A stretch of 36,371 bases of DNA from a virus, in IMG/VR virus record IMGVR_UViG_3300020477_001010, positions 1-36,371 of that record; one strand, given 5' to 3'. Positions 1-34,704 of the stretch are shown here, one piece after another. A program made the translations under genes and the position numbers. How positions within the stretch are numbered: the first letter of the stretch is position 1; the number at the start of each line of letters is the position of its first letter. Below the pieces are notes generated by a model. It was not told the origin of the DNA, did not search any database, and saw only the letters and a list, made by a program, of their open reading frames with translations.

Positions 1-1560
1 ACAACAACTACTTGGTCAACTAGTCATACAACAAATACAACTACAACATACGGGACAAGTCACAGCACAACTACAACATACGGGACAAGCCATAGTACAA
101 CTACTACTTGGTCAACTAGTCATACAACAAATACAACTACAACTTATGGAACTAGCCATAGTACAACCACAACTTATGGAACAAGTCACAGCACAACTAC
201 CACTTGGTCAACTAGCCACACAACAAATACAACTACAACGTATGGAACCAGTCATAGCACAACTACGACATGGGGGACTAGTCATACAACAAATACAACT
301 TATAATACTAGTCATAATACGACCACTTCTTACAACACAAGCAAGAATACAACAACATCGTATAATACAACTGTAGAAACTAGTCATACAACAACCACAA
401 CATGGGGAACAAGTCACAGTACAACTACAACGTATAATACTAATCACAGTACGACAACTTCTTATAACACTAGTAAAAGTACAACTACTACTTATAATAC
501 TACGTGGGGAACAAGTCACAGCACAACAACTTCGTATAACACAAGTCATAGTACAACTACAACATACGGGACAAGTCACAGTACAACTACCTCGTATAAT
601 ACAAATAAAAGCACAACTACTACTTATAACACTACTTGGTCCACAAGCCACAGTACAACCACAACATGGGGAACTAGTCACTCAACTACGACAACTTATG
701 GCACTAGTCACTCTACAACAACATCGTATGATACAACTGTAGAAACTAGTCATAGTACAACAACGACATGGGGAACAAGCCACAGTACAACTACAACTTA
801 TGGTACTAGTCATTCTACAACTACAACTTATGGTACTAGTCATTCTACGACAACATCTTACAATACAACTGTAAGTACAAATCATTCGACAACAACGACA
901 TGGGGAACAAGCCACAGTACAACTACTACTTATAGTACTAATCACTCAACTACAACAACTTATAGCACAAGTCATTCTACAACAACATCATACAATACAA
1001 CTGTAGAAACTAATCATACAACAACCACAACCTGGGGAACTAGTCACTCTACAACTACAACTTATGGCACAAGTCATGCAACAACGACAACTTATAATAC
1101 AAGTAAAAGTACAACTACTACTTATAATACTACTTGGTCAACCAATCACAGCACAACAACTACTTGGTCAACAAGTAAGAATACAACTACGACATACGGA
1201 ACAAGCCATAGTACAACAACTGCTTATAATACTAGTAAGAGCACGACAACAACTTATAATACCACGTGGGGAACTAGTCACAGCACGACTACTACTTGGT
1301 CAACTAGCCATAGTACAACCACAACTTATGGAACAAGTCACAGTACAACAACATCATATGATACGACTGTAAGTACAAATCACAGCACAACTACCACTTG
1401 GTCAACTAGTCACAGTACAACAACATCTTACAATACCAGCAAGAGTACTACTACATCGTATAATACCAGTAAAAATACAACTACAACATATAATACTACC
1501 TGGAGTACAAATCATAGTACAACAACATCTAAAAATACAACAACATCTTGGACAACTGTA
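1..1560 (+). repeat. Coding tandem repeat, ~30/36/42-bp units
   Basis: Imperfect tandem units encode the 10-, 12- and 14-residue peptides of the fibre-like gene. All length variants are multiples of 6 bp, so they change the protein by an even number of residues. Synonymous changes are frequent between units (ACA/ACT/ACC/ACG for Thr, AGT/AGC for Ser), so the protein pattern is better conserved than the DNA. Confidence 0.85.
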
Positions 1561-1584
1561 AGATCAACTAGTTTTTATGGATAA
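1..1584 (+). CDS. Thr/Ser-rich repeat protein, probable fibre (5' end missing)
   Basis: An open frame runs from the first base to a TAA at 1582-1584, giving 527 residues without an N-terminus. It is almost entirely repeats of 10 residues (consensus TTTTYGTSHS), with 12-residue (TTTTWSTSHTTN) and 14-residue (TTTTYNTTWGTSHS, TTTSYDTTVETSHS) variants. No Cys or Met is present, and charge is limited to a few K, E, D and one R. Every Tyr and Trp up to residue 517 lies at an odd position, as do the His residues, so the chain alternates strictly between two faces, as expected of extended beta structure. The C-terminus is a short non-repeat tail ending FYG. The gene lies just upstream of a sugar/oxygenase cassette and the tail module, so a fibre or adhesin is the best guess; this is inference, since no domain is recognised. 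ORFs in other frames here are repeat shadows. Confidence 0.75.
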   Translation, partial: TTTTWSTSHTTNTTTTYGTSHSTTTTYGTSHSTTTTWSTSHTTNTTTTYGTSHSTTTTYGTSHSTTTTWSTSHTTNTTTTYGTSHSTTTTWGTSHTTNTTYNTSHNTTTSYNTSKNTTTSYNTTVETSHTTTTTWGTSHSTTTTYNTNHSTTTSYNTSKSTTTTYNTTWGTSHSTTTSYNTSHSTTTTYGTSHSTTTSYNTNKSTTTTYNTTWSTSHSTTTTWGTSHSTTTTYGTSHSTTTSYDTTVETSHSTTTTWGTSHSTTTTYGTSHSTTTTYGTSHSTTTSYNTTVSTNHSTTTTWGTSHSTTTTYSTNHSTTTTYSTSHSTTTSYNTTVETNHTTTTTWGTSHSTTTTYGTSHATTTTYNTSKSTTTTYNTTWSTNHSTTTTWSTSKNTTTTYGTSHSTTTAYNTSKSTTTTYNTTWGTSHSTTTTWSTSHSTTTTYGTSHSTTTSYDTTVSTNHSTTTTWSTSHSTTTSYNTSKSTTTSYNTSKNTTTTYNTTWSTNHSTTTSKNTTTSWTTVRSTSFYG

Positions 1585-1654: not shown

Positions 1655-2611
1655 ATGGAAATGTTTAGTAATAAGGTCGCAAAAGATAGAATCGGCCCAT
1701 TAAGAAAAAGTTCAGCATTAAATCCTCTTCGCGAAGTTGAAAGATATTTTTTACAAGAGATGAAACACTATGAAAAAGATAAAAGATATAAAACTGAATG
1801 TGGATATGATGTTATGGCACAAGAATTGCCGTATTTTAAAACATTAAACTATACAGAATATGCATCATGTTTTATAATACACCCGTTAAATCTTGAAATG
1901 AGGTTGAGACAAATACGACATGCTTATGAAGATGATATAGAAAATATATTAGATTTTGCTTCGTATTTTAAAGATAATATCGAAAATAAAAGTGCAAATA
2001 AATACAAAGATAGACAAACTGATTTTGATAAGTGGCAAGAGCCGACTGATAATCTTTGTGTTTTGGTTGGTTCAAATAAATTAAAAGAAAGATTTTGCTT
2101 AAATAGATTAAGATGGCTTTCTACAGAGCACGATTCAAATATTCTATATAAACCACACCCAATAACAACACATCAAATTATTGGTGAGTTAAAGGATTTT
2201 CTGGGAGAACATAAACTATTACCAAGAGATGCAGATGTCTATCATTATTTACAAAATGCACATACAGTTTTTACATCACATATGAGTGAAACATGTTTAT
2301 ATGCTGCAGTTTTGGGAAAATGGGTAGAGCCAGTAGAGGTATATCAAAAAGTTCATCAAGGCTCATTTTATCATATAAATAGACAGATCTTTTTACGCCA
2401 AGCAGAGGGTCAAGATGTTGTTGAATGGGTAAATAAAACATTCTCAAATTACAAATCTGGAATTATTCAGCCTGCAGTTGATGAAAATTGGAGAGAAAAA
2501 ATTGATAAGTATCTTGAATATATTCATAGTGAAAGGGCAAAATATAAAGATTGGTACATCGAACATATAAAAGAAAGCGTAAGAAAACCACCAGAAGGAA
2601 ATACAAGATAA
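1655..2611 (+). CDS. Capsule-polysaccharide-type glycosyltransferase-like protein
   Basis: This 318-residue protein has AAGGAG upstream and is the first gene of the cassette. The C-terminal half resembles GT-B glycosyltransferases of the capsule synthesis type (KpsC/KpsS-like). A YKPHP motif at residues 165-169 is the kind of Lys-Pro-His-Pro loop seen in that family. Residues 203-224 (HTVFTSHMSETCLYAAVLGK plus WV) match the conserved 'visible in the sky, Ser-x-x-x-E-A-x-x-x-G-K' helix that closes the nucleotide-sugar site. The N-terminal 130 residues are not recognised. No signal peptide or membrane segment is seen, so it is probably cytosolic. Family-level assignment is moderately sure; donor and acceptor are unknown. 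Confidence 0.55.
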   Translation: MEMFSNKVAKDRIGPLRKSSALNPLREVERYFLQEMKHYEKDKRYKTECGYDVMAQELPYFKTLNYTEYASCFIIHPLNLEMRLRQIRHAYEDDIENILDFASYFKDNIENKSANKYKDRQTDFDKWQEPTDNLCVLVGSNKLKERFCLNRLRWLSTEHDSNILYKPHPITTHQIIGELKDFLGEHKLLPRDADVYHYLQNAHTVFTSHMSETCLYAAVLGKWVEPVEVYQKVHQGSFYHINRQIFLRQAEGQDVVEWVNKTFSNYKSGIIQPAVDENWREKIDKYLEYIHSERAKYKDWYIEHIKESVRKPPEGNTR

Positions 2612-2629
2612 TAATTATAGGAGATTATA

Positions 2630-2980
2630 ATGTATAATGTTGCAGGTAAAGTATGGGGAAAGACAGCTGAGATATTCTCAAATCATAATTTTGAAGTGCA
2701 TAGAATAGAAGTTAAAAAAGGAGGCTTTTGTTCTAAACATAAACACATACATAAATTTAATGCTTTTTATATTGAAAAAGGAAAATTAAAATTAACAATA
2801 TTTAAAAATGATTATGATTTAGTAGATGAAACTATAGTCCAAACAGGACAAATTGCGACCGCAAAACCTGGAGAATATCATATGTTTGAAGCATTAGAAA
2901 ATACAATATGTTATGAAATATATTGGGTAGAATTGAATCATTCAGATATAGAACGTGAAACTGTAGGTGGTAGTGTGTGA
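2630..2980 (+). CDS. Small cupin-domain protein
   Basis: A 116-residue single-domain cupin with AGGAG just upstream. Cupin motif 1 is visible as G-x5-H37-K-H39-I-H41 followed by E49 and G51. Motif 2 is G73, P80-G and H84. The three His and the Glu would hold a divalent metal, so the metal site looks intact. Small cupins of this kind act as sugar isomerases/epimerases, dioxygenases or sugar-binding proteins. Its neighbours, a glycosyltransferase and an esterase, favour a sugar-nucleotide or glycan role, but the substrate cannot be read. Its TGA overlaps the GTG start of the next gene (GTGA), implying coupled translation. Confidence 0.75.
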   Translation: MYNVAGKVWGKTAEIFSNHNFEVHRIEVKKGGFCSKHKHIHKFNAFYIEKGKLKLTIFKNDYDLVDETIVQTGQIATAKPGEYHMFEALENTICYEIYWVELNHSDIERETVGGSV

Positions 2981-3768
2981 AGCATTTTTATGTCATAGGT
3001 GATTCTATGACGGGTGCTAAACTTCAAAATTTAAAACATGAAGGTGAAACAGGTGGAGTTGGATGGGCAGAATATATAGCACCGTTATTTAATCAACAAA
3101 AATGTCAGTGGCACAATAAGTGCTGTATCGGATGGGCAATTCGAGATTTTTTTAATCGTGGAAAGTGTTACCCTAATAAAATATATTTAGAAGAATTTAT
3201 CTTTAAGAAGATGAATCCTAATGCAGATAATACATTATTTGCATGTTTTGGCACTTTAGAGGGTGCAAAAATAGATCTTAAAAAAACAGGATGGAAGCCA
3301 GAACTTTATTTTGGCCCAAGAGGTTCAATTCCGGGATTAGGTTATGAATCTAGAACTGTTTTTGATGATAAGTACAAAGAGGAATATGTTGTTTATACAT
3401 TTGGAGAATATTTACGTAGGTTAATTACGTTATGTGAACAATATAATACTGATCTATATTTTTTAACTCCGCCTGCAAGATATACGTGGAAAGATGAAAG
3501 ACATCATAGAGGAGGCTCACTAAAATATTCAGACTGGATGAAGCAAATTGCAAATGAGTATAATATTAAATTATTAGATAATAATACAATATTTTCAAAT
3601 TATTTGGATAGCTTAGGGCAAGAAAAATGTAAAGAATTATTTGCAATTCAAAAAGGTATTAAACCAAAAAAAGAACATACAACACCCAAAGGGGCTAAAA
3701 AATTTGCTGAACTAGTAAGGGATGGATTGGTGAGAGAATATCCAGAAACATTTCGAGATTTACTTTGA
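2977..3768 (+). CDS. SGNH/GDSL hydrolase, acetylesterase-like
   Basis: This 263-residue protein starts at a GTG that overlaps the cupin stop. Block I is GDS at residues 8-10 (nucleophile Ser10), followed by GVGWAEYIAPLF at 27-38, which resembles the GWG segment of rhamnogalacturonan acetylesterases. TPPARYTW (164-171) with a following Gly-rich turn, and EHTTPKGAKKFAELV (233-247, catalytic His234), match the later blocks of that subfamily. The block III Asn, normally in a G-x-N-D context, is not evident: the segment reads CFGTLEGAKID (90-100). The enzyme may remove or transfer acetyl groups on a glycan. No signal peptide is seen, so it may act on host-made or phage-made glycan inside the cell. 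Confidence 0.65.
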   Translation: MKHFYVIGDSMTGAKLQNLKHEGETGGVGWAEYIAPLFNQQKCQWHNKCCIGWAIRDFFNRGKCYPNKIYLEEFIFKKMNPNADNTLFACFGTLEGAKIDLKKTGWKPELYFGPRGSIPGLGYESRTVFDDKYKEEYVVYTFGEYLRRLITLCEQYNTDLYFLTPPARYTWKDERHHRGGSLKYSDWMKQIANEYNIKLLDNNTIFSNYLDSLGQEKCKELFAIQKGIKPKKEHTTPKGAKKFAELVRDGLVREYPETFRDLL

Positions 3769-4508
3769 AGTATAATTTTAGTGATCCAGAAATAACATCT
3801 CTTTTGACAATTGAAATTGGAAGAGGTTGTGATATGGCAAAAGATCATGACAAATGTCCAAGTGCAGATTTAGACAGATATGGAAATCTACCGCAGACTG
3901 AACAAATATCAGATGATTTAGTTGTAGAAATAATAGTAAAAGCTTATAAAGAAATGAAATTTAAAGGAAAGGTTGCTTTTCATTATTATAACGAGCCCTT
4001 AATGTATGGAAAAAGACTTTTTTCAATTGTTGAACGTGTAAGAGAAATCGTGCCAGAATCAGAATTCTTTTTAAATACAAATGGAACTTATGTTGATAAG
4101 TACTTAGATAAGTTACATTATTTTAAAATGATCGTATTAAGTAATTATTACAAAAAAGACTGGAGCTATGTTAAGGAGCATCTTAGTAGTGATTGTCATC
4201 TATGGATTCAGTCAGGTGACTTAGACGCAAGGAAAAATAATTTTAAAGATTTTAAAGAGACAACACCTTGTGGAAGACCATATAAAGAATTTATTATAGA
4301 CATATATGGAAATGGTCATTTGTGTTGTATGGATTGGAAAGGACAAGTTAATCTTGGTAATGTAAAAACAATAGGTTTTAAACAAGTATTTTATAATTTT
4401 GCAGAGATAAGAGAAAAAGTATCTACTGATGGAGAAAGATTAATGGATGAAGATGCACCATTAATTTGTAAAATGTGCAATGGAAAAACAACAAATAGAA
4501 AAGTATAA
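3765..4508 (+). CDS. Radical SAM/SPASM-like protein with non-canonical core cysteines
   Basis: A 247-residue protein that starts at a TTG overlapping the previous TGA (TTGA). Features of the radical SAM fold are present: FHYYNEP (72-78), similar to the GxxGEP-type strand, and LNTNGT (103-108). A SPASM-like C-terminal domain carries CGRPYKEFIIDIYGNG (169-184), CC at 187-188, LGNV and KMCNG, with Cys at 169, 187, 188, 235 and 238. The expected CxxxCxxC is absent; the equivalent N-terminal region has only C22 and C31. It may bind a different cluster, lack one, or act as a partner of the intact radical SAM enzyme two genes downstream. A peptide- or sugar-modifying role is inference. Confidence 0.6.
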   Translation: MKYNFSDPEITSLLTIEIGRGCDMAKDHDKCPSADLDRYGNLPQTEQISDDLVVEIIVKAYKEMKFKGKVAFHYYNEPLMYGKRLFSIVERVREIVPESEFFLNTNGTYVDKYLDKLHYFKMIVLSNYYKKDWSYVKEHLSSDCHLWIQSGDLDARKNNFKDFKETTPCGRPYKEFIIDIYGNGHLCCMDWKGQVNLGNVKTIGFKQVFYNFAEIREKVSTDGERLMDEDAPLICKMCNGKTTNRKV

Positions 4509-5523
4509 AGATACAAGAAGTCTTCGTCCTCATCCAAAACGAAGTGGACGTTTTCGCTCAGCAAATAGATTGTCAGTAATGGCAATATTTAGAAATGAAG
4601 CACATTTATTTAAAGAGTGGATAGAGCATTATTATAGCGAGGGTGTACAACATTTTTATTTAATAAATCATAATAGTACTGATAACTATTTAGATGTAAT
4701 TAGACCTTATATGAATGATATAAGTCTTATTCACACAAAAAAGATTTTCCCACAACGAGAAGGAGTATATGATCAAATAAATTCAGTAGTAGACTCAGAT
4801 TGGTTATTAGTATGTGATATAGATGAGTTTGTTTATGCAAGAAGAGGCTATAATACAATATTAGATTTTTTGAAAGATAAAGCAGAAACTAAAAAAGGCG
4901 TTCGCAATTTTAATCAAGTAATTATTCCGTCAGTAGATTTTCATAATGGTGGGGTTGAGAAACAACCAAAAAGTGTAGTTGATACATTTACAATTAGAAC
5001 AGATCACACAAAATCTCGTTATATGGTAAACCCACCAATATCATTAACAAAAGGTTTAGTTTACACAGGAAATGAAAATACAAATGTCGAACAATTTTTG
5101 GTTCATGGGCATAATGTTTCAGGAAAGACAGTTAATGGTAATTTAACAAAATCAGTATTCTTTGAAGATAATCCTTATAAAAAAGCAAATGAACTTGTAC
5201 AAGAATTTAGAAGACCTGATGAAGAACTAATAAAAACATCATATTTAAAACTAAATCATTATAGATTTCAGAGTAAAGAATTTTATTGGAATGATAAACA
5301 GTATCGTGGTGATGTTACAGGATTTTGGGCATATGATAATGATAATAATTTAAAAGAATATAATCATAAAAAAGAAAATCATCCCTTTAAAGGCGAAAAT
5401 TGGTTCGAACATAATTGGAGAATAATTCACCAACTGCCGTCCACTACTGATACAGAACTATTAGAAAAGAAAAAGAATAGAGTCAATGTCAAGAGTACTA
5501 TTAGTAAACCCACCATTTTATAG
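4480..5523 (+). CDS. GT-A glycosyltransferase (GT2/GT92-like)
   Basis: A 347-residue protein with the pattern of the Glyco_tranf_2_4/GT92 group. VMAIFRNEAHLFKEWIEHYY (33-52) is the opening nucleotide-sugar segment, LINHNSTDN (61-69) follows, and CDIDEFVY (112-119) gives the D-x-D metal-binding motif (D113, D115) with the usual EF. The proposed ATG at 4480 lies 29 bases inside the previous gene. An alternative start near Met34 would remove the basic N-terminus but leave the catalytic core. The donor sugar is unknown. It could glycosylate a host surface polymer or a virion protein; the Thr/Ser-rich fibre upstream is an attractive but untested acceptor. Confidence 0.75.
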   Translation: MEKQQIEKYKDTRSLRPHPKRSGRFRSANRLSVMAIFRNEAHLFKEWIEHYYSEGVQHFYLINHNSTDNYLDVIRPYMNDISLIHTKKIFPQREGVYDQINSVVDSDWLLVCDIDEFVYARRGYNTILDFLKDKAETKKGVRNFNQVIIPSVDFHNGGVEKQPKSVVDTFTIRTDHTKSRYMVNPPISLTKGLVYTGNENTNVEQFLVHGHNVSGKTVNGNLTKSVFFEDNPYKKANELVQEFRRPDEELIKTSYLKLNHYRFQSKEFYWNDKQYRGDVTGFWAYDNDNNLKEYNHKKENHPFKGENWFEHNWRIIHQLPSTTDTELLEKKKNRVNVKSTISKPTIL

Positions 5524-6925
5524 ATTATTAGGCTCACATTATAATGCAAACTCATTAGGAATAGCATACATATCATCATTCTTAAATAAGAATGGACATG
5601 ATTGTTGGCTATATAATGCAGATTTTTTAGGACATAATGAGTTTACAAAATATGATGTAATTCATCGTGAAAAAGGTTTTAAGACGTACAAAGATTATTT
5701 TTCAAATACAGATGGATATATTTGGGAAGAAGTTGTAGAAAAAATAATAAAGTTTGAGCCTGAATGGGTGGGATATACATCATACACAGCAAATATACAG
5801 ACAATTGATATATTGTCAACAAAAGTTAGAGAAAGAAAGCCAAAAATAAAACAAATTATTGGAGGCGTTCATGCAACATTAGATCATAATTTATTAGACA
5901 AATTAAAAAATATAGATTATTCTGTTCAACGTGAAGGTGAAGAGGCAATGCTTGCATTAGTTAACGGAAATGATCCAAGAACAATATCTGGTGTTGCTTG
6001 TCGTGAAGGTACAAAAATAATCGGAATAGGTGATGCAAATGTTATCAAGTCTATTGATGATCTACCATTACCAGAAAGAAATAAATTTTATGGAATGTCA
6101 GAAGAAGAAAAACAATTTATAGATGTATCTTATATCTGCAGTATTAGAGGATGCCCATATAGGTGTAATTATTGTGCATCACCTTTTCACTGGAAAAGAG
6201 ACAAAACACAATATAGAAGTCCTGAAAGTGTTTTAGATGAGATGAAACATTTAAAATCAAATTATTGGAATAAAAAGAAATATGATTATTCTGCATCTGG
6301 GAATGTTGAGGATAAGTCTAAAATGATCATTGAGGATAATACTATTGTTTACTTTGTCGATGATATTTTTACAGTTAAAAAGCCACGTGTAAAACAGATC
6401 ATGAGAAATATGATAGATAATAAATTAGATATGCCCTGGAAATGTGAAGCAAGAACTGATCACCTAGATGAAGAAATCGCAGAGCTCATGAAACAAACAA
6501 ATTGTAACAGAGTAAAATTAGGATTTGAAAGTGGCAGTGATAGAATATTAAAAGAAATACAAAAAGATGAAACAACAGAAGATATGAAAGTTGGTGCAAA
6601 ATTATTAAGAGATGCAGGTGTACCGTTCACAGCATATTTTATGGCAGGTTTTCCTGGGGAAACAGATGATGATGTTAGACAGACAATTGAATTAGCAAAA
6701 GAGATACAGGCTGATTATTATGTGTTGTCAATTTTATCTCCCTATTATGGCACAAAATTATATTTTGATTTGATGGATATGGGTTACGAATTAGATAAAC
6801 AACCCTGGGAATTTTTCTATCATCATTCTGGAGAAATGATGGTAAACAATCAAATATCAAATGAGATGCTGACAGAATATTTAAGATTAAATGAGTTAAA
6901 TAATACAAAAGAAAATTATGTCTGA
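5486..6925 (+). CDS. Cobalamin-binding radical SAM enzyme
   Basis: A 479-residue protein with the standard layout of B12-dependent radical SAM enzymes. The N-terminal cobalamin-binding Rossmann-like domain runs from VLLVNPPF (4-11) through IIGGVHAT (124-131). The linker with DDLPLPER (191-198) is typical of the family. The radical SAM core has an intact RGCPYRCNYC (221-230, cysteines 223, 227, 230). The lower-axial DxHxxG motif is not seen, as in many members. Such enzymes methylate or ring-rearrange unreactive carbon atoms. It overlaps the upstream glycosyltransferase by 38 bases, so the two are probably translated together. The substrate is unknown; a glycan or a peptide of this cassette is likely. 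Confidence 0.85.
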   Translation: MSRVLLVNPPFYRLLGSHYNANSLGIAYISSFLNKNGHDCWLYNADFLGHNEFTKYDVIHREKGFKTYKDYFSNTDGYIWEEVVEKIIKFEPEWVGYTSYTANIQTIDILSTKVRERKPKIKQIIGGVHATLDHNLLDKLKNIDYSVQREGEEAMLALVNGNDPRTISGVACREGTKIIGIGDANVIKSIDDLPLPERNKFYGMSEEEKQFIDVSYICSIRGCPYRCNYCASPFHWKRDKTQYRSPESVLDEMKHLKSNYWNKKKYDYSASGNVEDKSKMIIEDNTIVYFVDDIFTVKKPRVKQIMRNMIDNKLDMPWKCEARTDHLDEEIAELMKQTNCNRVKLGFESGSDRILKEIQKDETTEDMKVGAKLLRDAGVPFTAYFMAGFPGETDDDVRQTIELAKEIQADYYVLSILSPYYGTKLYFDLMDMGYELDKQPWEFFYHHSGEMMVNNQISNEMLTEYLRLNELNNTKENYV

Positions 6926-7637
6926 TTTAATTGTTTATAATAATTGTATTGATGGGATTAAATGGTATCATAAAGTGACTGATAATACTTTTAATGAAAA
7001 TGAGTCTGAAATAATATCATCATATTTTAAAAATTTTGATGAGTTACATAGTGAAGAAAATTGGATCAGATATAGTGATGGACATAAATTAGATATAGTG
7101 GGATATACAGCAATAGTATTTTTTCCAAACACATCTAGATGGACAGATATAATACAAGCTCTTTTAGATAATACATGCGGCGCTAAAAAATTTTATGGAA
7201 ATAAAAAAGATTATATGGTTGCTTTAGAGTTGACAGTAACAAAACCAAAATATAAGTATGACTGGCATGTAGATGTTTCAAGAAAAGCATTTACAGGAGT
7301 ATGCTATTGGGGAAACAGTGGTGAGGGAACAATACTAAAATCAAAAGACACACACAAAATTGTAGAGTGGAAACACAATAGGGCTGTGTGGTTTGGAAAT
7401 TATGATAGAAATAATCCTATTGATGAAAGTTTAATTCCTGTACACAAGTACGAGAATAATTCAGATAATATAAGAACAACTGTAAACATAAATTTTACAC
7501 CTCAACAACATATTAATGAGTTTTTAACCAAAAAGAAAGAACAATTAGATTTTTGGCTTAAAAATAAAACACCTCTCTGGGTGCCGATGATCACTGCCAA
7601 AACAAAAACAGGATGGGATAATAATGGAAGAATATAG
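6918..7637 (+). CDS. 2-oxoglutarate/Fe(II) oxygenase-like protein
   Basis: A 239-residue protein that overlaps the radical SAM gene by 8 bases. The iron site reads H117-x-D119 (DWHVDVS), then GEGTI at 135-139, a distal His176 and Arg186 in NIRTTVNINF, giving the H-x-D...H...R order of 2OG-Fe(II) dioxygenases. The C-terminal 45 residues are Lys/Trp-rich and not part of the core. The protein would hydroxylate an unknown substrate in the cytosol. A second oxygenase of a different subfamily follows immediately, so the pair may act on successive positions or on two substrates. Confidence 0.65.
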   Translation: MSDLIVYNNCIDGIKWYHKVTDNTFNENESEIISSYFKNFDELHSEENWIRYSDGHKLDIVGYTAIVFFPNTSRWTDIIQALLDNTCGAKKFYGNKKDYMVALELTVTKPKYKYDWHVDVSRKAFTGVCYWGNSGEGTILKSKDTHKIVEWKHNRAVWFGNYDRNNPIDESLIPVHKYENNSDNIRTTVNINFTPQQHINEFLTKKKEQLDFWLKNKTPLWVPMITAKTKTGWDNNGRI

Positions 7638-8190
7638 AATCGAGGATAAAGCAAAATCTTTAATCGGTGGCTGGTTTATTGATACATCTATGTGCGATAT
7701 GCTTATAGGTGAATATTATAAAAATAGCAAATATGCTAGTTGGGATAATTTAAGAAAATATAGTAGATTAAATGATTCACAAATAGATGCTGCAGTAGTA
7801 GAACAATATGTTGTCCATTTAAAGTCTTGTATAGAGATGTATAAAGACAAATATCACTGGTGTGTTAAGAGTAATGAGCCGTGGGCAATAACACAGCCAA
7901 TCAATCTTCAGTTATTCAAACCGGGCGATGCATATTCTTTACAACATATTGAATCAGGTGGGCCACAAAAGGGAAAATTACAAAGACATTTAACATTTAT
8001 GACGTATTTAAATGATGTGAATGATGGAGGACAAACAGAATTTGAATATCAAAATATTCTTGTTCAACCAAAAAAAGGCCTAACATTAGTTTGGCCTGCA
8101 GTTTGGACACATCCGCATAGAGGAATACCAGCTATTAGTGAAGATAAATTTATAATGACTGGTTGGTGTTCATTTTTTCATAGATGTTAA
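7624..8190 (+). CDS. Prolyl-4-hydroxylase-like 2OG-Fe(II) oxygenase
   Basis: A 188-residue protein of the P4H-like family common in marine T4-type phages. The double-stranded beta-helix shows YSLQHIES (104-111), RHLTFMTYLND (121-131), GGQTEF (135-140), the distal His165 in HPHRG, and Lys175 plus W181 for the 2-oxoglutarate end. In most members the first motif is H-x-D; here it is H108-I-E110, a Glu in place of Asp, which could alter iron handling. It is the last gene of the cassette: a 67-base gap containing a promoter-like box follows. The substrate may be a peptidyl residue, but this is not shown by the sequence. Confidence 0.75.
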   Translation: MEEYRIEDKAKSLIGGWFIDTSMCDMLIGEYYKNSKYASWDNLRKYSRLNDSQIDAAVVEQYVVHLKSCIEMYKDKYHWCVKSNEPWAITQPINLQLFKPGDAYSLQHIESGGPQKGKLQRHLTFMTYLNDVNDGGQTEFEYQNILVQPKKGLTLVWPAVWTHPHRGIPAISEDKFIMTGWCSFFHRC

Positions 8191-21522: not shown

Positions 21523-22089
21523 ATGCCAATAGAAAGAACAGAAGGGCCATTTATTACAGAACAGGGAGAGTTTAATTATTACGAATTAGACGAAGACGAA
21601 AAAGAAGTTCCTGTTAGAAAAGGGCAAGAGTATATTAAAAAAATAACAGAAACAAAAAGAGTTCAGTATGAATTGGTCATGACAGGATTAGAGATCGAAA
21701 AAATAAATGAGACAGATATGTTAGCAAAATATTCCAGTACAGGAAAGGCAAGAAAAAAAGATAGCTATCCTATAAAATTTTATCCTACATCTGCAAAAAT
21801 GGACAGAAACAATAAATTTATAGAAAGGGTATTTGCTCGTAGCAAGATTGATGGAATAGGTGAGATATTTGAAGTAAAGTCAACGACAAATGCTACAGTC
21901 TATAAATTTGTTACAATTAAATGGCAAGTAGGTGGAGATGTAGAAGAGGCAAAGTTATTCAATCAGAAACAATTAGACGCAGCAGAATCAGATATGAATG
22001 GCATAACAGATGTTTTGCCAACTGATCAGTTACATTTTAGTAAATTTGATAGTTTACTATCTAGATCGCCAAGATACCAAAATTCTTAA
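21523..22089 (+). CDS. Putative baseplate/tail accessory protein, unknown family
   Basis: A 188-residue protein with TAGGAAAATA before ATG. It is beta-rich and charged: residues 1-60 hold Glu/Asp-rich segments (YYELDEDEKEVPVRKG), and 75-135 contain alternating strands (YPIKFYPTSAKMD, KFIERVFARSK, VYKFVTIKWQVGG). No enzymatic motif, membrane span or Cys was seen. It is the last gene of the tail module on this strand and converges on the TonB-domain gene. A virion role is inferred only from position. Confidence 0.55.
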   Translation: MPIERTEGPFITEQGEFNYYELDEDEKEVPVRKGQEYIKKITETKRVQYELVMTGLEIEKINETDMLAKYSSTGKARKKDSYPIKFYPTSAKMDRNNKFIERVFARSKIDGIGEIFEVKSTTNATVYKFVTIKWQVGGDVEEAKLFNQKQLDAAESDMNGITDVLPTDQLHFSKFDSLLSRSPRYQNS

Positions 22090-22090
22090 A

Positions 22091-22423
22091 TTATTTAAAT
22101 AATATAGGTAGCTTATACCTAACCCTCACAGGTGTTCCATTTTGTGTTGCTGGATTAAATTTTATTGCCATAACTCTATCTATTATAGCATCATTTAATT
22201 CAATATCAAATGTATCTATTATTTGTGGTTCTACAACTCTCCCTTTTTCATCTACTACAAATTTTACCAATATCTTTCCTTTATATTCTGAAGTATCTGG
22301 GTTTGGTAAATCTAAATAGTCTATTTCAAATGGTGTTGTTATTTTTGGTTTTTGGCTCTCACCGTCTGGTAAGTCTTGGGCTACCAAAGAGCCCATTAGC
22401 ATTAAAAAGATTATTGTCCTCAT
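22091..22423 (-). CDS. Secreted TonB C-terminal domain protein
   Basis: A 110-residue protein, the only convincing minus-strand gene in the window. Residues 1-16 (MRTIIFLMLMGSLVAQ) form a short signal peptide with cleavage likely near AQD. Residues 48-110 match the TonB C-terminal domain: GKILVKFVVDEKGRVVEPQI, then DRVMAIKFNPATQNG and VRVRYKLPILFK. It lacks the membrane anchor and Pro-rich spacer of a working TonB. AGGAGGA lies 5 bases before the ATG. Its stop is one base from the stop of the tail gene, and a 14-base palindrome (22090-22103) spans that stop. It may bind outer-membrane TonB-dependent receptors from the periplasm; this is inference. Confidence 0.8.
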   Translation of the reverse strand: MRTIIFLMLMGSLVAQDLPDGESQKPKITTPFEIDYLDLPNPDTSEYKGKILVKFVVDEKGRVVEPQIIDTFDIELNDAIIDRVMAIKFNPATQNGTPVRVRYKLPILFK

Positions 22424-22522
22424 TAATGTCCTCCTAATAATTTCGGTGTTGAAAGAGATATTAATTATTCATAAATAATGATAAAAGTTAAAAATAACAC
22501 AATCCTTGTAAAACTTTTTGAT

Positions 22523-22533: not shown

Positions 22534-23838
22534 ATGGTTATAGAAAATAACAAAGGTTATAAGAGTTTATTAAAGCGTATTTCTGGTAAAAGTGTATGTG
22601 CTGTATTTGCACGTGATGATAATAGAAATCATCCTGCAGAGTCAAAGTCAATAGCAGTATCAATTTATTACGAGGGTAAGACATACGATATAATATTTGA
22701 TCATAGCGAATCATTCTCATCAGATTTAGACATTAAATTATTATCATCAATCAAAAGATTTTGGGTAGATGATGTAAAGGAATTTTATCACATAACAGGT
22801 TTGTGTAACGGATATGATGTTAGGCTTTACAATTATTTAGAAACTTTAGACTATAATGTATTAGATGAGCCTGAAGTATTTAAACATATTTATGAGAATA
22901 CATTTTCACTTAGAAAAGCTAATAAAATTATTCCAGTTGTAAAAGTTTTAGAATACTGTCATGATAGACTTGACGAGATAATTAAAAACATACCTAAAAG
23001 TATTACAAAGTCATATGTAAGATATAATCGCGCATTATATGAATTTGCAAAATTAGAAAGCTCTGGAATTAAAATAATACCAAACTCATTTGGGACAGTA
23101 TTTATGAATGGTTACGGATATACAAATTATAATATTTTTACAGCAACAGGAAGACCCTCGAATACATTTCGTGGTGTAAATTTTGGTGCCCTTAATAAAC
23201 ATGACAATACAAGGAATAATATTGTATCTAGATTTGATAAAGGCTTGTTAGTTGAGTTTGACTATGATGCATACCACCTGAGGTTATTAGCAGAAATATT
23301 AAATTTTGATGTACCAATGGATCAATCACTTCATCAATATTTTGCAGATGAAATTTATAAGACAACTTATGATGAATCTAAGAAAATATCTTGGCAAATA
23401 TTGTATGGAAATATACAAGTTTCTGAGAAAGATAACCCATTTTTCTATAAAGTAGAAAAAATGGCAGATGTCCTATACGGCTATTTCACTAACAATAAAC
23501 ACTTCAAATCACATATTTATAAAAGACAATTTGTATCTGATCAGATTTCTGATCCGAATAAGAAAAAAGTATTGAATTATTTTATACAATCGTACGAAAC
23601 AGAGAAAAATATTGAGATTATTACTAAGATCAATAAATATTTGGAAGATCGTAATACACGAATGATGTTATATACGTACGATAGTTTCCTATTCGATCTA
23701 GATAGGAAGGAGGGCCTTAAAACGGTACTCCAGATAAAAGAAATTTTACAGGACAATAAGTATCCTGTCAAAGTAAAGGCTGGCCTTAATTATGGGTCAT
23801 TGGAAGAAATAACGGAGAGACTAAATGGACTTGCGTAA
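22534..23838 (+). CDS. Divergent family A DNA polymerase-like protein
   Basis: A 434-residue protein with the polymerase fold of Pol I but a short N-terminus. TATGRPSN (203-210) matches the TGRLSS segment. Motif A is DYDAYHLR (243-250), keeping the catalytic Asp but with His for the usual Glu. Motif B, KKISWQILYG (283-292), keeps the Lys and Tyr but has Trp for Phe762 and Tyr for Arg754. Motif C is TYDSFLFD (381-388), keeping Asp383 while the flanking His and Glu are Tyr and Ser. Residues 1-150 could be a degraded 3'-5' exonuclease. The start is doubtful because it has no Shine-Dalgarno and overlaps a conserved leader motif. T4-like phages normally carry family B gp43, which is not in this window. 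Confidence 0.7.
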   Translation: MVIENNKGYKSLLKRISGKSVCAVFARDDNRNHPAESKSIAVSIYYEGKTYDIIFDHSESFSSDLDIKLLSSIKRFWVDDVKEFYHITGLCNGYDVRLYNYLETLDYNVLDEPEVFKHIYENTFSLRKANKIIPVVKVLEYCHDRLDEIIKNIPKSITKSYVRYNRALYEFAKLESSGIKIIPNSFGTVFMNGYGYTNYNIFTATGRPSNTFRGVNFGALNKHDNTRNNIVSRFDKGLLVEFDYDAYHLRLLAEILNFDVPMDQSLHQYFADEIYKTTYDESKKISWQILYGNIQVSEKDNPFFYKVEKMADVLYGYFTNNKHFKSHIYKRQFVSDQISDPNKKKVLNYFIQSYETEKNIEIITKINKYLEDRNTRMMLYTYDSFLFDLDRKEGLKTVLQIKEILQDNKYPVKVKAGLNYGSLEEITERLNGLA

Positions 23839-32733: not shown

Positions 32734-34704
32734 ATGCAACAGAAATTTAAGTTATCACAAGCATTTATAGACAAGTATAAAAGGAAAAAAGCACCATTTG
32801 GTTTTAATGGTCTAGGTGAATTAGTTTTTATGAGAACATATTCACGGCTTAAGGATGATGGTAAAAACGAAAAATGGTGGGAAACAGTACAAAGGGTTGT
32901 AGAAGGAACGTACACAATGCAGATGAATTGGATAGAGTCACATCAGCTAGGATGGAATCCGTGGCGTGCTCAAAAGTCTGCACAAGAGATGTTCGATAGA
33001 ATTTTTAATATGAAGTTCTTACCTCCAGGTAGAGGGCTTTGGGCTATGGGAACACCAATAACAGAAGAAAGAAATTTATATGCTGCATTAAATAATTGTG
33101 CTTTCGTCTCTACAGAGACAATTAAAGATGACGGTTCTAAACCCTTTACTTTTTTAATGGATGCATCAATGCTTGGTGTTGGCGTAGGGTTTGATACTAA
33201 AGGTGCTGAAAAAATTATGGTAAAGGGCCCTACTATAAAACGCGAACCAGACTATTATAAGATACCTGATACACGTGAAGGTTGGGTTGATTCTGTTGCT
33301 GCATTAATTGATTCTTATTTTTATGGCACACCTGAACTTAAATTTGATTATTCAAGTATACGACCAGCAGGCGAACCAATTAAAGGTTTTGGAGGACAGT
33401 CAAGTGGACATGAACCGTTAGAGGAAGTTCATGAAATGATAAGAGAAGTACTTGATGGAAATACTGGTGCTCCAATTACAACTACAACAATTGTAGATAT
33501 AATGAACCTTATCGGGAAGTGTGTAGTAGCAGGAAACGTACGCCGTACAGCTGAAATTGTATTTGGTGATCCATACTCTGATGAATACATGGATTTAAAA
33601 AATTATGAAGTAAATCCTCATAGAGATCAATACGGCTGGACATCAAACAATTCTATATTTGCTGAGTTAGGTATGGATTATTCTGAGGCATGTAAAAGAA
33701 TTTCATTAAATGGAGAACCAGGTTTTGCTTGGTTAGAAAATATGAGAGGTTACTCCCGAATGAAAAATGGACATGACAACAAAGACCACAGGGCAGCAGG
33801 AGGTAATCCATGCTTGGAACAAACTTTGGAGTCTTATGAGTTATGTTGCCTTGTTGAGACATTTCCTTATGCACATGAATCACTTGATGATTATAAGAGA
33901 ACACTCAAATATGCTTATTTATATGCTAAAACAGTTACACTTGGAAAAACTCATTGGCCAGAAACAAATAGGGTGATGTTACGTAATCGTAGGATTGGTT
34001 GTTCTGTTAGTGGTGTTGCTCAATTTTTGACATATAGAGGAGTTGGAGAATTAAGAGAGTGGCTAGAATCTGGATATGATGAAATTCAAAGACTAGATGA
34101 TGTCTATTCAGATTTTCTTGCAATACCAAAATCAATAAAGACAACTTCAGTTAAACCGAGCGGAACAGTATCTTTATTAGCAGGCGCTACACCGGGTGTA
34201 CATTATCCAGAATCTAGATTTTATATTAGAAGAATGAGATTATCAAATCAATCAGAATTATTACAACCCTTAGAAGCAGCTGGATATAAAATAGAACCAG
34301 CATTTGGATCTGAAGACTCTACTGTATGTGTTGAAGTACCAATTGATGTAGGCGGTGGAATCAGAACAGCTAAGGAATTGACTGTATGGGAACAATTTAG
34401 CCTTGCTGCGTTTATGCAGAGACATTGGGCAGACAATCAAGTCAGCTGTACAGTTACATTTGATCCAGCCGAAGAGGCAGATCAATTAGAGCAGTGCTTA
34501 AATTACTTTCAATATCAGTTAAAGGGTATTAGTTGTCTTCCAAGATTTGATGCAGGTGCATATAAGCAAATGCCTTATGAAGCAATTGATGAGAAAAAAT
34601 ATAATAAAATGAGCAAGAAGCTTAAAAATTTATCATTTGCTAAAATGAAAGGTGAAGATGCAGAGGCTGAAAAGTTTTGTGATGGAGATGTTTGCATTAT
34701 TTAA
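32734..34704 (+). CDS. nrdJ: Class II (adenosylcobalamin-dependent) ribonucleotide reductase
   Basis: A 656-residue protein of the monomeric class II type, somewhat shorter than the roughly 740 residues of Lactobacillus RTPR. GRGLWAMGT (99-107) and CAFVS (Cys122) provide the N-terminal redox Cys. NPCLEQTLESYELCC (358-372) gives thiyl Cys360, Glu362 and the second redox Cys at 371 or 372. KPSGTVSLLAGATPGVHYP matches the phosphate-binding loop. The C-terminal tail has the C-x4-C redox pair (Cys649, Cys654). It makes deoxynucleotides without oxygen or an NrdB subunit, but needs B12. AAGGAG lies 8 bases before ATG. Confidence 0.9.
   Translation: MQQKFKLSQAFIDKYKRKKAPFGFNGLGELVFMRTYSRLKDDGKNEKWWETVQRVVEGTYTMQMNWIESHQLGWNPWRAQKSAQEMFDRIFNMKFLPPGRGLWAMGTPITEERNLYAALNNCAFVSTETIKDDGSKPFTFLMDASMLGVGVGFDTKGAEKIMVKGPTIKREPDYYKIPDTREGWVDSVAALIDSYFYGTPELKFDYSSIRPAGEPIKGFGGQSSGHEPLEEVHEMIREVLDGNTGAPITTTTIVDIMNLIGKCVVAGNVRRTAEIVFGDPYSDEYMDLKNYEVNPHRDQYGWTSNNSIFAELGMDYSEACKRISLNGEPGFAWLENMRGYSRMKNGHDNKDHRAAGGNPCLEQTLESYELCCLVETFPYAHESLDDYKRTLKYAYLYAKTVTLGKTHWPETNRVMLRNRRIGCSVSGVAQFLTYRGVGELREWLESGYDEIQRLDDVYSDFLAIPKSIKTTSVKPSGTVSLLAGATPGVHYPESRFYIRRMRLSNQSELLQPLEAAGYKIEPAFGSEDSTVCVEVPIDVGGGIRTAKELTVWEQFSLAAFMQRHWADNQVSCTVTFDPAEEADQLEQCLNYFQYQLKGISCLPRFDAGAYKQMPYEAIDEKKYNKMSKKLKNLSFAKMKGEDAEAEKFCDGDVCII

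Follow-up and report, generated by a model that had tools for sequence, protein, structure and literature searches.

What use would a phage have for a TonB domain that is predicted to be secreted and that possesses neither a membrane anchor nor a spacer? The question is raised by a small gene, here termed tonC, on a 36,371-base marine virus fragment (IMG/VR IMGVR_UViG_3300020477_001010), the whole of which is referred to as the window. A first-pass annotation had pictured its product as a free domain that could occupy the TonB boxes of outer-membrane receptors from the periplasm. Here, we follow the gene into related phages, in many of which it is linked with a cassette of pilin-like genes, and this linkage changes how tonC should be read.

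The tonC gene and its surroundings

Because the window encodes tail sheath, tube and baseplate wedge proteins, gp32-like, RecA-like and DnaB-like proteins and a B12-dependent ribonucleotide reductase (32734-34704), it represents a fragment of a contractile-tail, T4-like phage. The tonC gene runs from 22423 to 22091 on the minus strand (22091-22423 with the stop codon included) and comprises 110 codons starting with ATG, exactly as delimited in the first-pass annotation. A strong Shine-Dalgarno sequence, AGGAGG, can be read off six nucleotides ahead of the start (22430-22435, minus strand). The gene is antisense to both of its neighbours. On one side it converges, across a gap of a single base, with the ORF that ends the tail block (21523-22089, plus strand, 188 amino acids), and on the other it diverges from a polymerase-A-like gene (22534-23838, plus strand, 434 amino acids, sub-threshold match to DNA_pol_A). 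The gene had been described as abutting the tail module on the opposite strand, and this is indeed the case; the convergent ORF itself has no family match but comes after the tail genes and is found in the same place in relatives. The GC content of tonC is 0.312 and that of the record 0.345. A promoter scan around the window gene gave no better results than shuffled sequences, and no terminator was found near it.

The window opens with a long low-complexity ORF (1-1584, plus strand, 5' end open) made up of Ser/Thr/Tyr/His/Asn repeats (TSHSTTTTYG...), which is perhaps a fibre or adhesin. Next to it lies a non-structural block (1655-8190, plus strand), in which radical SAM, glycosyltransferase-like, SGNH-like and 2OG-Fe(II) oxygenase-like proteins were recognized by eye and which possibly serves surface or sugar modification.

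Domain structure and predicted fold of TonC

The tonC product accounts for the single TonB_C match across the entire record. Pfam TonB_C (PF03544) matches residues 47-110 (22094-22285, minus strand) with 41 bits (cut-off 24.6; E 2.6e-10), and NCBIfam returned TonB-type domains below threshold only, one of them being the N-terminal portion of the model for the MxcH receptor. By hydropathy, the N-terminus is signal-peptide-like, its basic n-region and hydrophobic core being followed by a conserved A|Q junction; the predicted signal peptide spans residues 1-15 (MRTIIFLMLMGSLVA|Q; 22379-22423, minus strand) and is conserved in 24 relatives. Some 30 residues precede the domain, and both the N-terminal membrane anchor and the proline-rich spacer are absent. 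Throughout 24 family members, the mature protein of 93-106 residues contains no Cys and lacks any hydrophobic segment, the 19-residue Kyte-Doolittle mean reaching at most 0.29-1.12.

An AlphaFold2 model of TonC built from 26 phage sequences has a mean pLDDT of 83.6, with values of 90 or more in 70 residues and over most of the domain. When the model was compared with solved structures by Foldseek and VIA-align, TonB C-terminal domains occupied ranks 1-14, the best match being the domain bound to FoxA (6i97_D; Z 10.6, rmsd 1.8, 85 residues). Similarity to TolA domain III is weaker (Z 4-5.7), and no viral TonB fold was found in BFVD. The profile match, the predicted fold and the conserved A|Q leader bear out the original description of a signal peptide joined to a TonB C-terminal domain without anchor or spacer, and the nearest relatives did not turn out to be unrelated secreted phage proteins. 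Purifying selection acts on the TonB_C domain (dN/dS 0.035 between the window and its relative L001, 0.11-0.25 in other pairs), and tonC is a real, constrained gene.

A family of anchorless TonB domains in phage contigs

At least 25 distinct copies of tonC are present in IMG/VR phage contigs. The family was assembled from a scan of IMG/VR proteins (six contigs) and a profile scan (11 contigs), followed by HMM and BLAST searches over the collected loci. TonB_C exceeds its cut-off in 16 of 29 phage records in one set and in two of 15 in a second. The alignment features 13 invariant columns and a common C-terminal end, LPI.F[KQR], from which a subgroup (L079 and L082) differs. The family is devoid of the YP..A segment preceding the first strand, which the bacterial homologues compared here keep.

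That such a gene is unusual phage cargo, as had been remarked at the outset, is supported by database comparisons. No PHROG family covers TonC, and INPHARED yielded seven distant hits, each with less than 40% identity over the domain: five in fecal 'phage' records and two in records of one size (735 kb) from an uncultured phage. One of the five fecal hits (H3; MT835586, L192, labelled UNVERIFIED) was rejected as a phage precedent, its gene content being that of a bacterial chromosome with an anchored TonB encoded beside an FtsX-like protein, a sensor kinase and G6P dehydrogenase.

Linkage with a pseudopilin cassette

In three relatives (L002, L003 and L006), tonC resides downstream of a run of prepilin-like ORFs. 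A scan with the first of these genes, pilA, led to 51 loci, and the gene is thus present on about 50 uncultured phage contigs. The cassette is made up of one to three prepilin-type pseudopilins, the divergent pilin-like protein PilA, a membrane protein, a secreted protein and TonC, most commonly in a pilA-pilB-pilC-pilD-membrane-secreted-tonC arrangement; in some loci pilB and pilC are absent or the genes for the membrane and secreted proteins are swapped. Several adjacent genes overlap by a few bases, and gp32-like and RecA-like genes come after the cassette in many loci. A GC-rich hairpin lies within about 15 nt of the tonC stop in nine of 21 copies, and eight of these hairpins have a T-rich tail, marking tonC as the end of the transcript in those copies. 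The cassette is operon-like in its organization, and in many relatives tonC closes it.

The proteins PilB to PilD carry a prepilin N-terminus, G|FTLIE with Glu5, and all five that were tested exceed the cut-off of N_methyl (PF07963; E 1e-4 to 1e-8). They also match GspG, with E values of 5e-9 to 1.5e-11 that lie below the cut-off, as well as PHROG 3433. No family reaches its cut-off for PilA, in which G|NSLAE (Glu5) and Pro22 of the processed protein are invariant in 18 sequences; its AlphaFold model (pLDDT 47) is unusable. Present annotation overlooks the cassette, as INPHARED contains no match to PilA or to the secreted protein and TonC is without a PHROG.

Downstream sequence of at least 4.5 kb is available for 30 pilA loci. 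In 15 of these, some of which are near-identical copies, tonC follows pilA on the same strand at a distance of 1.3-2.9 kb. About half of the pilA loci are devoid of tonC, and the cassette can therefore work without it. In two loci (L027 and L062) tonC is displaced, yet remains in the same region as the cassette. In the clade of the window (L001, L079-L082 and L096) it stands alone and antisense at the junction of tail and polymerase genes, and no pilin cassette genes occur in the sequenced 36 kb of the window. A 66-kb member of the clade, G031, has tonC at this junction and the cassette about 43 kb away, and G032 (82 kb), the closest long relative of the window, has the cassette and lacks TonB_C. 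As both carry a cassette elsewhere in the genome, the window phage may well do so beyond the part sequenced. All 14 tonC-bearing records longer than 37 kb also contain pilA, a figure biased by the fact that most of them were found via pilA. TonB_C is also absent from five records of 55-132 kb that were drawn via the polymerase gene and in which pilA is absent.

Further genes accompany the cassette in some loci. In 12 of them, two genes lie just upstream of pilA, the first for a membrane protein bearing an MshE-type c-di-GMP motif (L044:1009-2053, with homologues in L028, L030, L032, L048, L051, L057, L060 and L067-L070) and the second for a secreted, thioredoxin-like protein. The L044 protein is matched by NCBIfam NF053729 over the cut-off (E 6.5e-12), and eight phage records gave no match to MshEN (PF05157). 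Upstream of the cassette of G032 (L163:8635-9645), a TGA lies in frame within a TlpA-like redox motif (FTSW-U-PSC), and the portion beyond it is matched by the NCBIfam model for Omp28-related selenoproteins below the cut-off (E 7e-29); a phage-carried selenoprotein is possible, and a small hairpin 3' of the TGA scores no better than shuffles. A small hydrophobic protein (about 75-80 amino acids) is conserved and encoded antisense just past the cassette, both in the same genome (L163:12607-12852, minus strand) and in 27 further loci. At the cassette end of G031 (L164:9543-9881), a 113-amino-acid protein without family match looks by eye like a fragment of an MscS-type channel.

Assembly machinery and host

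In the phage records, which may be incomplete, we found no secretin (PF00263, 0/30), no assembly ATPase over the cut-off (PF00437, 30 records), no prepilin peptidase (PF01478, 0/20) and no ExbB (PF01618, 0/20, with positive controls matched). Matches to T2SSE were weak and partial, covering about 60 positions; they were discarded as they probably stem from another ATPase. With secretin, assembly ATPase and prepilin peptidase missing, the cassette products, if they are pilins, depend on host machinery. The lack of ExbB in 20 records argues against TonC being a component of an energised system encoded by the phage.

A Gram-negative host, as proposed originally, holds. The idea that the nearest TonB lineage would identify this host did not work out: the nearest matches in the genome collection are at most 34% identical to tonC, and the TonB_C profile has matches in 287 of the 395 Bacteroidota genomes, too wide a distribution to give a pointer. 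There was no match to pilA in the 395 Bacteroidota genomes, a scan run without a positive control that says little. The A|Q-type leaders and dockerin-like repeats are reminiscent of SAR406/Marinimicrobia, which may be a candidate host.

History of tonC

In a tree with long branches and few comparators, the phage TonC proteins stand apart from four bacterial comparators (support 100/99). The window protein groups with the cassette copies of L002 and L003 at moderate support (86/87) and is 76% identical to them. G031 and the window share 90% identity in the RecA-like protein and only 44% in TonC, and the TonC type of G031 groups with that of L062. As the relationships of tonC do not track those of core genes, the gene has been exchanged or replaced within the phage pool. 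Horizontal exchange of this kind fits a cargo gene under changing selection.

Possible roles of TonC

Phages commonly gain entry to Gram-negative bacteria by way of TonB-dependent receptors and type IV pili. We tentatively prefer the reading that tonC belongs to an envelope-remodelling cassette and that its product, a free TonB domain, acts as a competitor for TonB boxes, so that outer-membrane receptors are blocked, e.g. to keep out superinfecting phages. The product would be a soluble periplasmic TonB C-terminal domain without inner-membrane anchor or ExbB/ExbD coupling, acting as part of a set of pseudopilin-like, membrane and secreted proteins that would operate via the host's machine for type II secretion or type IV pili. 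It would occupy the TonB boxes of host receptors; since an anchorless domain can bind boxes yet not deliver force, gating would be blocked. The cassette pilins, in turn, would alter the host pilus or secretion machine. As receptors and pili are common points of entry, the infected cell would be shielded from other phages or its surface traffic reshaped during infection. Receptor interference would be the simplest purpose common to TonC and the pilin-like proteins, and the best-known benefit it could bring is superinfection exclusion (PMC11436027). If true, the phage would act on both of these entry routes with copied host parts.

There is precedent for the individual elements. According to its title, the study by Howard et al. 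(2001), listed as a reference in PMC11308372, reports that in E. coli an exported, periplasmic TonB domain is inhibitory to transport via FecA and FhuA. Interference of phages with TonB-dependent receptors (Cor acting on FhuA) and with type IV pili has been reviewed (PMC11436027). The missing YP..A segment counts against a decoy for TonB boxes, as contact with receptors and binding may be altered. The pilA loci devoid of tonC and the absence of cassette genes from the 36 kb of the window also weigh against this reading.

Loss of the YP..A segment speaks for an explanation that we consider almost as likely, namely that TonC functions in the assembly or gating of the phage's own pseudopilus system, or as an adaptor within it, and binds a β-strand provided by a pseudopilin, by the secreted cassette protein or by the host secretin rather than TonB boxes. 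In many relatives tonC occupies the last place of the pilin cassette, frequently ahead of a terminator, and it is absent from the five long relatives without pilA, both of which fit such a role; TonB_C-like domains occur, as sub-threshold matches, in gliding proteins such as GltG and AgmX/PglI. However, about half of the cassettes do without tonC, and in the clade of the window the gene is transcribed separately from any cassette.

Competition for TonB boxes also has to be weighed against an unlikely role as an auxiliary metabolic gene, in which the free domain would alter substrate traffic via certain receptors and so shift nutrient uptake in favour of the phage. TonB domains act in the uptake of iron and B12, and the ribonucleotide reductase of the window depends on B12. 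Without anchor and ExbB/ExbD, however, uptake would not be energised, so that loss rather than gain is expected, and no receptor gene was apparent among the neighbouring ORFs read. Still less probable is a contribution to progeny release or to disturbance of the outer membrane at lysis, e.g. by binding to envelope proteins of the Ton/Tol type. The small secreted protein adjoins late (tail) genes in the window, and the weaker fold similarity to TolA domain III would agree with such a function, but TolA ranks clearly below the TonB domains, and in relatives tonC sits with pilin genes ahead of replication genes and not among lysis genes. A recently acquired host gene without any role in the phage is very improbable despite the abundance of TonB_C in Gram-negative genomes such as those of Bacteroidota, given a domain dN/dS of 0.04-0.25, a signal peptide and C-terminal end kept in at least 25 copies, and the separation of the phage sequences from the four bacterial comparators.

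Receptor blocking by a free TonB domain can be extended to a wider picture, which we regard as less likely than not when taken as a whole: marine contractile-tail phages might assemble a pseudopilus set on the host machine, aided by the c-di-GMP-motif and redox proteins as helpers and with the anchorless TonB domain as periplasmic switch or receptor blocker, resulting in an envelope refit unlike known superinfection exclusion.

Comparison with known systems

The TonB C-terminal domain as such, its anchorless secreted versions on Bacteroidota chromosomes and phage pilins (PHROG 3433) are already known. We did not find described a phage family of anchorless TonB domains or its place in a multi-pilin cassette; no account of either was found in the literature, with limited coverage of subscription papers. 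TonC resembles the TonB C-terminal domain (PF03544; E. coli 1u07, P. aeruginosa 6i97_D) in that it exceeds the family cut-off and shares the predicted fold over 74-85 residues (Z 8-10.6). It differs from the TonB energy transducer by the absence of anchor, spacer and YP..A, and its phages are without ExbB. Short Bacteroidota proteins (L186-L191) are similar in that a signal peptide or lipoprotein signal is directly followed by one TonB_C domain in frames of 120-150 amino acids. These proteins, however, keep YP..A and are encoded in tandem or chromosomal loci, whereas TonC is found in a pilin cassette and groups apart from the four comparators. The 735-kb uncultured phage LR756501 also encodes a TonB domain (L193:2401-3201), but here the protein is a complete TonB of 266 amino acids with membrane anchor and proline-rich linker, and identity over the domain is 29%.

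The cassette proteins PilB to PilD share the prepilin N-terminus with the phage pilins of PHROG 3433 and with GspG-type pseudopilins. What sets the cassette apart is that it links several pilin-like genes with a divergent pilA and a TonB domain, while pilus and secretion machinery are missing. Cor, which acts on FhuA, and the pilus inhibitors of Pseudomonas phages (PMC11436027) resemble the cassette in their targets, TonB-dependent receptors and type IV pili, which for the cassette are proposed ones only. No family in common with these exclusion proteins was found, and in contrast to them the route proposed for the cassette would be mimicry of TonB.
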